A DNA stretch of 64,000 nt. Origin: Deltaproteobacteria bacterium (GTDB lineage: Bacteria > Desulfobacterota > Desulfobulbia > Desulfobulbales > JAJRZW01). A program made the translations under genes and the position numbers. The notes under the pieces are model-generated. The model made no database searches. It worked only from the letters and a program-made list of their open reading frames with translations, and was not told the DNA's origin. The first letter of the stretch is position 1; each line of letters starts with the position of its first letter. This document shows, one piece after another, positions 32,445 to 35,612 of this stretch. The DNA is taken from positions 30,814 to 94,813 of the forward strand of contig JAJRZW010000064.1 in the NCBI GenBank assembly GCA_024275015.1, given 5' to 3'.

Positions 32445-32474
32445 GTCGTTTTTTCTTCTGTATAATATTGATTG

Positions 32475-32652
32475 CCTCGTAACAAGTACCCGTTCCGGCT
32501 TGAAACGGCATTTCCGGGCCTCCGGGCGACGGGATGCTAACCCCGTAAACTAGGGCTAAGTCCTCAGGCAGACGTGGGGGGTATCCATCCCGCCGCCCGG
32601 GATTTTCCCGGAAATTGCCGGAGACGCCTCCGCGGGGACTTTTGTTACGAGG
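32475..32652. repeat. Family B repeat, long copy with nested hairpins
   Basis: Perfect 11-bp ends CCTCGTAACAA / TTGTTACGAGG enclose ~178 bp that folds back on itself. Inner arms include GGGCGACGGGATG / CATCCCGCCGCCC. The centre, CCCGTAAACTAGGGCTAAGT, is not shared with other copies. No ORF. It may act as the ppaC transcript end. Confidence 0.78.
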
Positions 32653-32663
32653 CCATCATATTT

Positions 32664-32703: not shown

Positions 32704-34305
32704 TTACCGGGTGCCCCGCAGCCTGAACGACTGACCGGGTTCCGTGTCCGGGCCGCAGATGATCTCCAGATCCCGTCGCAGGTTGAAATCGTCGTCATGC
32801 TCGGAGGTATGGCAGCCGGCGCAGGCACTGGCGGGAGAGGGATTGCCTGGTTCTGCCCCGTTGGGATCGGCGGCATGGTTCTGTCCCGGGCCATGGCAGG
32901 CTTCGCATCCAACCTGGCGCAGGGAGGAGGGGATGTAGAGCAGATATGGCTCTGCCGCCTCTCGGGTGGTGGAGACATGGCATTTGAGACATTTGGGGTT
33001 GGCGGTCTCGTTTTTTTCTCTCAGGGTATTCCAGGCCCTTGAGTGGCGGCTTGCGAGCCATTTTTTTGCTTGAGCTTCATGGCAGCGACGGCAGGTCGGC
33101 AATCCGGTGTAACCGAGGGCAAATATCTTCCGTCGTGCCTGCGCCGCGGTTTGTGTCTTTATGTTCAGTTCTTTTTTCAGGGCCAGGACTTTTTTCTTTC
33201 CGGCCGTGATCAGTCCGAGTACCTCCGGGGCGTCTTTGACCTCTGGCTCAATTGCGAGGAATCGTCCCTGCCATTTCATCCCTGCCGCCGTGTTCTTCTC
33301 CCTTGCGGCGATTTTTTCAAGACTGTCTGTGGCCGCTTTTTTTTGTTTTTCAAGGGCGGCGAGGTATTGTGGCTGCGGTACGGTTTTTCTTTTCCGTAAC
33401 CGATCCAGGCGCCAGTTGATGCTGTCAATCCTCCGGAGGAGGTTTTGTCTTTTATTGTCAAGGTTTTCAATCCAGGGGCCGGCGAGGGTGCCGTTTATAT
33501 CCAGGCGGGCAAGGTATTTGCCCCGGGCGGAGATAACCCCTACGAGCAGGTTGCTGATCAGCTTCGGGCTCATGTTGCCGGTCCGGGAGGTCGTCGCGTC
33601 GATTATCATTCTTATATCGGGAAAGGCGCGGGATATTTCCTGGTAATTATTGCGGACCACGCTTGAGAGGAGGACGATGAAGTCGGGATTTTTTTTCTTT
33701 ATCCCGGCGATTACCCCGGGCAGGGATTTTTTCCAGGAGATGATACGGTATTTGTGTTTCAGTATCGGTCCAAGGTCACTGGAACTGCCGGTGAGCCCGA
33801 TTACCGCGAGCCTTACCCCGTCGCGGTTGATGATCGTGTAGGCGGGGAAGACCCTTTTTCCTGCCGTGGTTATCAGGTTGGCGCTGATCCATTTGATTTT
33901 ATTGTCACGGCCGAGGACGCGGATGAAATCGATTCCGGCGGCAAGGTCGTAAGGGCCGACTCCCAGGGCATCGTAGCCCATAGCCTTATAGGTCGCGGCA
34001 ATGGTGGCGGCGGTTATCTCCGCCTGTTTGCGGCGGTATTCCGGCAGATGTATCTTTTCGAACAGGCCGTTGCCTCCGTCAAGAATGAACAGTGGTCCGG
34101 CGGCGGATTTTTTTATCTCTTTCAGTATGGTCGCGCGCTTGGCAAGACCGCCAAGCTGATGGCTTTTTCAGCCGCAGGGGTCGGTTTCGCCGTGATTTCC
34201 GGCGGAATAGCTGATGACCAGATTTGTTTTACCACCGGCCGTGGCGGGATACGACATGGTGACGGCTGCTGTCACAGCCAGAAATATTATCATCGGAATT
34301 TTCAT
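32704..34305 (-). CDS. Metallophosphatase/5'-nucleotidase fused to a tetrahaem cytochrome c; probable selenoprotein (UGA at codon 46)
   Basis: The frame from ATG 34305 to 32704 spans 533 residues with a single in-frame TGA (34170-34168). Signal peptide MKIPMIIFLAVTAAVTMSYPATA; then NLVISYSAGNHGETDPCG-TGA-KSHQLGGLAKRATILKE. The TGA falls where I expect Cys in this family's CGC motif. A hairpin GCTTGGC-GGTCTT-GCCAAGC starts 12 nt after the TGA, giving a SECIS-like element. A UshA-type metallophosphatase domain (LFILDGGN, YDALGVGPYDL) follows, then a coiled region, then four haem motifs: CRRCH, CLKCH, CEACH, CAGCH. It would be exported. The start overlaps the rarA stop by ATGA with AAAGGAAAG upstream. 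Gene finders will split it. Confidence 0.82.
34130..34170 (-). promoter_or_regulatory. Sec codon plus predicted bacterial SECIS hairpin
   Basis: TGA (34170-34168) is followed by 11 nt, then a perfect 7-bp stem GCTTGGC/GCCAAGC (34156-34137) closing the loop GGTCTT. The GGTCT starts 18 nt after TGA. As I recall the E. coli fdhF element, its loop AGGUCU places GGUCU at the same distance. The stem also encodes LGGLAK, so some constraint is coding. Confidence 0.72.
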
Positions 34306-35612
34306 TCTTTCCTTTTTCCTTTCTGGGCCTTGTCGGCCAGGATGCGGCGCCACTTTTGCAGACGGTCGCTGATTATCGCCTCATGGCCGCGGTTGGTTGG
34401 TTGATAAAAAACAGTGTCCCTGATTGCTTCCGGCAGATGCTCCTGGGGGACGAGGGCATCTGTCTGATCGTGGGCGTAACGATAATCTTTGCCATAGCCG
34501 AGGTCCTTCATCAGCCGGGTCGGGCTGTTTCTTACCGCCATCGGCACCGGCAGGGAGCCGGTTTCTTTGATCTTGGCCATGACCTGATTCATGGCCCGGT
34601 AGGAGGCGTTGCTCTTGGGGGCGGTGGCGAGATAAATCGCGGCTTGGGCCAAGGCCAGTTCCCCTTCCGGGCTGCCGAGTATATGGTAACTTTCCCGGGC
34701 TGAGAGCGCAAGGGTAATGGCGGCGGGGTCGGCGTTGCCGATATCCTCGGAGGCGAAGCGGATCAGGCGCCGGGCAATATAGAGGGGGTCTTCGCCGGCG
34801 GCAAGCATCCGGGCAAGCCAGTACAGGGATGCGTCGGGGTCGCTGTCGCGCATGGATTTATGCAGGGCGCTGATCAGGTTGTAATGCTCCTCTCCGGACT
34901 TGTCATATCTGAGGCTGCCACCCTGGATCGCCTCCTTGACCTCGTCGGGGGTTATTTCGTTTTTTTTCGCTTCCGTTGCCAGGGCGGCCGCGGTCTCAAG
35001 GGCGTTCAGGGCTCGTCTGCCGTCACCGTCGGCTGCCTGCGCCAGTTGTTGTTTTGCCTCCGCATTTATTTTGAGCCCCAGGTCGCCAAGCCCCTGTTCC
35101 CGATCAGTGAGGGCGCGGTCAATTATGGCGGCAATGGCTTCCGGGGTCAGAGGGTTCAGGACTATTACCCGACAGCGGGAGAGGAGGGCGGCGATTACAT
35201 TGAAGGATGGGTTTTCGGTGGTGGCACCGAGGAGGGTGATGAGTCCGCTTTCCACATGGGGGAGAAAGGCGTCCTGCTGGCCTTTGTTGAAGCGGTGAAT
35301 CTCGTCGACGAAGAGGACGGTATTCCGTTCCTGATGCATTTTTGCGCCAGCGATTATCTCCCGGATTTCCTTGACCCCGGAGAGGACGGCGGAAAAGAAG
35401 ACAAACCGGGCGTCGGCCTTGCGGGCGATAATTTTTGCCAGGGTGGTCTTTCCTACTCCGGGCGGACCCCAGAATATCAGTGACGGCAGGTGTTCACCCA
35501 GACGGTCGAGAATATGCCCCGGCCCAAGGAGGTGCTCCTGGCCGGTGATGTCCTTGATCTGTGCCGGCCGCATCCTTTCGGCCAGAGGGGGGCGGTGCCC
35601 GGCTTTATTCAT
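34302..35612 (-). CDS. rarA: Replication-associated recombination protein A (MgsA/RarA AAA ATPase)
   Basis: A 436-residue clamp-loader-like ATPase. It has the N-terminal PLAERMRPAQIKDITGQEHLLG, Walker A FWGPPGVGKTTLAKI, Walker B VLFVDEIHRFNKGQQDAFLP, sensor GATTENPSFNVIAALLSR, and the C-terminal tetramer region with SAFIKSMRDSDPDA-like LHKSMRDSDPDASLYWLARML and LVPQEHLPEAI. It acts at stalled forks. Length and motifs are standard. It overlaps the start of the selenoprotein candidate by 4 nt, so the two are coupled. Confidence 0.95.
   Translation of the reverse strand: MNKAGHRPPLAERMRPAQIKDITGQEHLLGPGHILDRLGEHLPSLIFWGPPGVGKTTLAKIIARKADARFVFFSAVLSGVKEIREIIAGAKMHQERNTVLFVDEIHRFNKGQQDAFLPHVESGLITLLGATTENPSFNVIAALLSRCRVIVLNPLTPEAIAAIIDRALTDREQGLGDLGLKINAEAKQQLAQAADGDGRRALNALETAAALATEAKKNEITPDEVKEAIQGGSLRYDKSGEEHYNLISALHKSMRDSDPDASLYWLARMLAAGEDPLYIARRLIRFASEDIGNADPAAITLALSARESYHILGSPEGELALAQAAIYLATAPKSNASYRAMNQVMAKIKETGSLPVPMAVRNSPTRLMKDLGYGKDYRYAHDQTDALVPQEHLPEAIRDTVFYQPTNRGHEAIISDRLQKWRRILADKAQKGKRKE

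Follow-up and report, generated by a model that had tools for sequence, protein, structure and literature searches.

The window analysed here, a continuous stretch of 64,000 nucleotides, contains on its minus strand a gene for a UshA-like selenoprotein of an already catalogued family, and the protein is probably an exported, metal-free metallophosphatase fold in which a Cys-Gly-Sec redox pair is coupled to a cytochrome c554-like tetrahaem domain. The metal-binding residues of the phosphatase fold are lost, so redox chemistry wired to four haems is probable, rather than phosphate cleavage.

Gene layout

The gene runs from an ATG at 34305 to a TAA at 32704 on the minus strand, and it is a single frame that is open apart from one TGA. 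This TGA is codon 46 (34170-34168), it follows ...GETDPCG, and KSHQLGGLAKRATILKE continues in the same frame. With the TGA read as selenocysteine (Sec) the product has 533 amino acids and the sequence ...GETDPCGUKSHQLGGLAKRATILKE... around codon 46; without recoding, standard ORF calling gives a 45-aa ORF and a 425-aa ORF with an internal ATG (33981) as its start. The earlier note on this DNA had described a TGA after DPCG, a continuation into the 425-aa ORF without a frameshift and a gene cut in two by the ORF track, and translation bears out all of this. From its signal peptide-like N-terminus, the protein is predicted to be exported. The start overlaps the end of the rarA-like gene upstream, start and stop codon sharing an ATGA (34305-34302). 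The features are collected in Table 1.

Table 1. Features of the UshA-like gene and its upstream neighbour, in window coordinates.
Feature	Position	Strand	Basis
Whole gene, UshA-like PCGU selenoprotein, 533 aa with Sec46	32704..34305	-	translation with TGA as U; NF041198 match
Signal peptide-like N-terminus MKIPMIIFLAVTAAVTMSYPATAG, residues 1-24	34234..34305	-	sequence; helix 3-17 in the model
P43-C44-G45-U46 motif	34168..34179	-	alignments of 71 sequences and of 48 distant homologues
Sec codon 46, in-frame TGA	34168..34170	-	translation; alignment of 71 sequences
SECIS-like hairpin, 7-bp stem GCTTGGC/GCCAAGC, loop GGTCTT	34137..34156	-	pairing analysis; Sec-relative conservation
Metallophosphatase-fold domain, about residues 27-285, degenerate dimetal site	33451..34227	-	HMM (UshA, other 5'-nucleotidases); Foldseek; ligand columns
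Tetrahaem domain, cytochrome c554-like, about residues 396-508	32782..33120	-	PF13435; PDB 1bvb
Haem site 1, CRRCH, 405-409	33079..33093	-	invariant in 71 sequences
Haem site 2, CLKCH, 439-443	32977..32991	-	70 of 71 sequences
Haem site 3, CEACH, 467-471	32893..32907	-	69 of 71, other two truncated
Haem site 4, CAGCH, 495-499	32809..32823	-	69 of 71, other two truncated
Upstream rarA/mgsA-like AAA+ gene, neighbour outside the proposed function	34302..35612	-	ATGA overlap with the start

Selenocysteine at position 46

Among 71 aligned sequences of the family position 46 is Sec in 58 and Cys in 13, and C44 and G45 are invariant. The suggestion of the earlier note that the UGA encodes Sec at a Cys-equivalent site is thus upheld, and homologues with neither Cys nor Sec at this position were looked for and none was found among the 71. 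Recoding of the TGA as Trp was also considered and was rejected, because the homologues carry Cys or Sec at this position, never Trp. Of 258 genomes from the same order that were searched, 190 gave a family match above the cut-off; exactly one internal TGA is present in nearly all of the best matches, and none in a minority. On the maximum-likelihood tree three Sec/Cys changes are needed, as opposed to 10.4 in shuffles. The two forms may also be found together: genome G243 holds a Sec copy and a Cys copy (L038 and L049) that are near each other on the tree, and genomes G239 and G242 are likewise listed with Sec and Cys copies of the family.

The hairpin downstream of the TGA (GCTTGGC-GGTCTT-GCCAAGC, 7 bp, 34156-34137, with GGTCT beginning 18 nt past the TGA) is present as the earlier note had given it. 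When codons were swapped for synonyms at the frequencies of the gene itself, a stem as good was obtained with P = 0.013, and such a stem together with a GGTC loop with P = 0.001; the hairpin of the window gene is not due to chance. Under the same model about 0.8 of the 58 Sec sequences would be expected to have a GGTC loop with a stem matching their own quality, and we observed a GGTC loop with at least 6 bp in 41 and with at least 5 bp in 53. A 5-nt loop of the GGTCT type is found in 56 Sec homologues, i.e. in all save the window protein and its congener L039, and the five inner stem pairs of this register form in 56 out of 56, the changes at these pairs being G-C/G-U exchanges and two double changes from G-C to A-U. 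The sixth pair is present in 44 of the 56, usually T-A or C-G. Among the 13 Cys forms, these pairs are made in only 5 to 12 sequences. Judged by these patterns the hairpin is under selection, and its reading as a hairpin of the bacterial SECIS type stands, with GG at the start of the loop and pairs that are kept in the Sec forms and decayed in the Cys forms. In the window gene and L039 the register has moved by one base, giving 7 bp and a 6-nt loop, a shift due to Ala in place of Ser in the coded peptide; the position of GGTCT is unchanged. Two Sec forms from other lineages, L127 (uncultured proteobacterium MAG) and L131 (Oligoflexia MAG), carry an identical GGGC-GGTCT-GTCC element. Rfam gave no match for the hairpin after the TGA, and a scan of the window for other TGA read-through candidates left hits without a conserved Sec context.

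The source genome (2.45 Mb, 93% complete) has the full set of selenium genes that was searched for. In profile searches selA (592 bits), selB (339 bits) and selD (342 bits) score above their cut-offs, and selC reaches 74.9 bits against a gathering score of 47, so that selB and selC, whose absence the earlier note had regarded as damaging to its proposal, are both present. The selD gene (L088) is itself interrupted by an in-frame TGA (RTCG-U-AAKIG), and standard ORF calling would mis-annotate it because this TGA splits the gene. Taken on sequence grounds, UGA46 is decoded as Sec via the hairpin just downstream.

Family membership and distribution

The protein scores 441 bits against the NCBIfam model NF041198, 'UshA-like (seleno)protein' (UshA_like_PCGU, cut-off 275), the match spanning profile positions 2-517 of 519 and residues 8-508, and it has the features of this family, i.e. 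P43, C44, G45 and U46 followed by four C-terminal CXXCH motifs. In 2008 the Global Ocean Sampling survey (PMC2398784) listed the family as 'COG0737, UshA-like, CxU' and gave 76 Sec sequences for it, and the reviews PMC9312934 and PMC13188914 include it too; the passages on the UshA-like family in these three papers name no function, haems or loss of a metal site. The gene is a member of this catalogued family and the 'new selenoprotein candidate' of the earlier note is not a new family, because of the NF041198 score and the listing of CxU in 2008.

Within NF041198, the window protein shares the full-length match, the PCGU motif, the metallophosphatase-like domain, the four CXXCH motifs and the predicted export, but it is divergent: it scored about 433 bits in the genome search as opposed to 500-665 bits for many relatives of the order, and it shares 45% identity with its congeneric homologue and no more than 34% with the other relatives examined. 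It also has the shifted hairpin with the 6-nt loop and has lost the residue equivalent to D41 of UshA as well. The UshA-like family 2 (NF049981, a 262-position model with a CxxU motif) is related in the N-terminal region (residues 29-120, 49 bits), but the window protein remains under its cut-off of 140. It is not a member of ExtKL either (NF040886, 8.9 bits, cut-off 250). ExtKL, MccSep (PDB 9wt8) and the window protein have in common that they are multihaem c-type cytochromes containing Sec, but no metallophosphatase domain or PCGU motif is reported for the former two, and the similarity of the haem sites is weak. Sec in multihaem cytochromes is thus an established kind of protein, as seen in ExtKL (PMC5877670) and the solved MccSep, neither of which belongs to the same family.

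The family extends well beyond the order. GTDB species genomes were scanned with the family profile, i.e. with an alignment as query; unlike this query, a single sequence gave no match against genome contigs. The same architecture was found in Myxococcota, Planctomycetota, Verrucomicrobiota, Acidobacteriota and other groups, with identities of 21-36%, most of the distant homologues tested with NF041198 scoring under its cut-off. In 48 distant homologues PCG is invariant, with Cys after it in 46 and Sec in two; no variation is seen either in the haem motifs or at E468, H421 and H477. PCG-C/U is accompanied by the haem domain throughout the 71 and the 48 sequences. Since nearly all distant homologues combine Cys with the haem motifs, Cys-Gly-Cys with a tetrahaem domain is the broad version of the protein, and we infer that Cys-Gly-Cys is ancestral and Sec the derived state, because Sec is concentrated in the order to which the source genome belongs. 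No full-length relative was found in plasmid records.

A metallophosphatase fold without its metal site

The N-terminal domain matches UshA and other 5'-nucleotidases in HMM searches, and the family profile recovers the homology to E. coli UshA (E 1.5e-22 for one sequence). An AlphaFold2 model of the window protein (pLDDT 89, pTM 0.86) has 5'-nucleotidases as its top Foldseek hits, with E down to 6.6e-19. The metal and catalytic residues of E. coli UshA (1USH), which we take to be D41, H43, D84, N116, H117, H217, H252 and Q254, correspond to G, H, N, P, Y, S, T and S in the window protein, the mapping being less certain past residue 201. Only the H43 equivalent, i.e. one out of eight, is kept in the window protein, and between none and three are kept across the family; the alignment shows that the equivalents of D84, N116, H117, H217 and H252 are mostly lost. 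The best His column of the N-terminal domain has His in 43 of 71 sequences and in no more than 12 of the 48 distant homologues, and a conserved dimetal centre containing His is therefore absent. The family invariants are instead C44, G45, position 46 (Cys or Sec), Q50, G52, G78, D120, G262 and W278.

We read the N-terminal domain from these alignments as a metallophosphatase fold whose dimetal site has been lost. The location of the motif 'near the metal site', as put forward in the earlier note, does not hold, the dimetal ligands being gone in the window protein and family-wide. It is possible that D76, D120, C44 and U46 form an alternative metal site. It is useful to compare the protein with E. 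coli UshA. The two share the N-terminal fold and sequence homology, which extend to the 5'-nucleotidases, but the window protein has neither the set of dimetal ligands nor the C-terminal nucleotide-binding domain; it has Sec and haems, the haem domain standing in place of the nucleotide-binding domain.

The tetrahaem domain

CXXCH motifs are found at residues 405, 439, 467 and 495, and the four haem sites claimed for the protein are therefore real features of its sequence. The domain matches the cytochrome c554 family PF13435 (49.2 bits, gathering threshold 20.8) and, over residues 396-508, also PDB 1bvb, the cytochrome c554 of Nitrosomonas europaea. The CXXCH pattern and the surrounding sequence are shared with c554, but in the window protein the domain is fused to a metallophosphatase fold, and the best match spans the first three haem motifs. 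Apart from the His residues of CXXCH only H421 and H477 are invariant, H503 being His in 49 of 71 sequences. Four bis-His haems need four distal ligands, and since there are too few conserved His residues, at least one haem may be differently liganded, i.e. without a His distal ligand.

Gene neighbourhoods

In the same order rarA lies upstream in 19 of the 41 loci examined, and a PPase-like gene is a conserved downstream neighbour. Neither gives a functional clue and the arrangement looks like plain synteny. Between the 3' ends of two convergent genes of the window (32469-32658) there is an intergenic palindromic element of about 190 bp (MFE -105.9 kcal/mol, z -7.7) with at least 41 matches in the 2.45-Mb source genome, mostly 71-78% identical, and compensatory changes at 10 of 65 consensus pairs in 8 copies. 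Matches in the congeneric genome are shorter or weaker, the other genomes sampled from the order have almost none, and the element has no Rfam match.

Other neighbours are found next to Cys forms. In four genomes of one genus the Cys form lies directly after yedF (203 bits for TIGR03527), the two genes overlapping or abutting (L055 and L057, also L050 and L053), and in two of these genomes (L055, L057) a selD-like gene precedes both further upstream; the arrangement is possibly a selenium-metabolism operon. The selD-yedF linkage was set aside as evidence for a selenium-specific role, as all four cases belong to one genus. In five planctomycete or verrucomicrobial loci (L135, L151, L157, L169 and L174), the PCGC-tetrahaem gene overlaps the gene after it, which has a thioredoxin-like CxxC motif (WCPYC, WCGWC, WCGPC, SCPWC and DCPWC), and the one such gene that was scanned has a thioredoxin fold (PF13098, 61.6 bits). 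A DUF4159 family gene precedes the PCGC-tetrahaem gene in eight loci, a DUF1573-type gene is directly upstream of the PCGC form in the planctomycete loci L149, L152, L155, L159, L165, L166 and L173, and in L047, L051, L054 and L056 the gene after the Cys form codes for a membrane protein that has several SorB-like c-type haem domains.

Possible functions

We suggest the following mechanism. UGA46 would be read as Sec, via the downstream hairpin, by the cell's own SelA, SelB, SelC and SelD. The Cys-Gly-Sec pair, ancestrally Cys-Gly-Cys, would be the active centre, and from the alignment it would sit in the loop that once bore the first metal ligands (phosphatase motif I). C44 and U46 would cycle between the selenol/thiol and the selenenyl-sulfide state and exchange electrons with the C-terminal tetrahaem domain, either to or from the haems, so that the protein would act as a periplasmic haem-linked thiol/selenol oxidoreductase. 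The likely reaction would be the reduction or oxidation, in the periplasm, of a disulfide, a selenenyl-sulfide or a small sulfur or selenium compound. A thioredoxin-fold protein or such a small compound is the likeliest partner, and we favour a thiol/disulfide role, as some of the Cys forms have thioredoxin-fold genes next to them. Against this explanation it can be said that the thioredoxin link comes from distant Cys homologues outside the order of the window gene, whose own neighbour rarA has no obvious functional link.

A doubtful alternative casts the protein as a reductase (or oxidase) that acts in the periplasm on a small compound of sulfur or selenium, such as selenite, tetrathionate, polysulfide or thiosulfate, and in which Sec would be the substrate-binding nucleophile and the haems the electron source. 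The relationship of the haem domain to c554 and to octahaem tetrathionate reductase-like cytochromes is consistent with it, as are the distant fold relative SoxB, the yedF gene just before the Cys form in one genus (preceded in turn by a selD-like gene in two of the four genomes) and the comparable multihaem selenoprotein ExtKL, which was proposed for selenite reduction (PMC5877670). However, the linkage to selenium genes is confined to one genus and may be a single event, and the Cys form is frequent in groups that are represented in culture by aerobes (Myxococcus, Blastopirellula, Comamonas), so a specific selenium role is unlikely there.

The clear relationship to UshA and other 5'-nucleotidases, by homology and in fold, could also be taken to mean that the protein is still a phosphatase or nucleotidase, its activity being under redox control by the CGU motif and the haems, much as the earlier note had imagined an 'exported Sec phosphatase'. 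We regard this as very unlikely: with one of the eight metal and catalytic residues kept here and at most three in the family, with most of the ligand equivalents lost and with the nucleotide-binding domain swapped for a haem domain, the loss of the dimetal ligands in the window protein and throughout the family speaks against redox control of a phosphatase. It is harder still to believe that the TGA is a true stop or an error in the sequence, and that the locus holds a broken gene or two separate ones. Standard ORF calling does split the gene and the source genome is a draft of 76 contigs, but most homologues of the order, the congener L039 included, have one TGA at the same place, the hairpin is constrained, and the downstream frame keeps all the family invariants.

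Implications

A haem-linked Cys-Gly-Sec oxidoreductase remains our preferred reading of the window protein. With regard to the family as a whole, we consider it an evenly balanced possibility that the PCGU/PCGC proteins form a broad class, found in several phyla, in which a metallophosphatase fold devoid of metal serves as the base of haem-wired Cys-Gly-Cys/Sec oxidoreductases; Cys would have been upgraded to Sec mainly in sulfate-reducing and related anaerobes, and the reaction catalysed would be one not yet described. A phosphatase is what the name 'UshA-like' leads one to expect, but the metal site has been taken apart and it is Cys-Gly-Sec/Cys and the four haems that are invariant, and this loss warns against transferring a nucleotidase annotation to UshA-like PCGU proteins. 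It is this family-wide mechanism, rather than one further divergent member, that should be of interest to specialists: it predicts haem-linked thiol/selenol redox activity for selenoproteins to which the passages on the family, from the 2008 listing on, assign no function.
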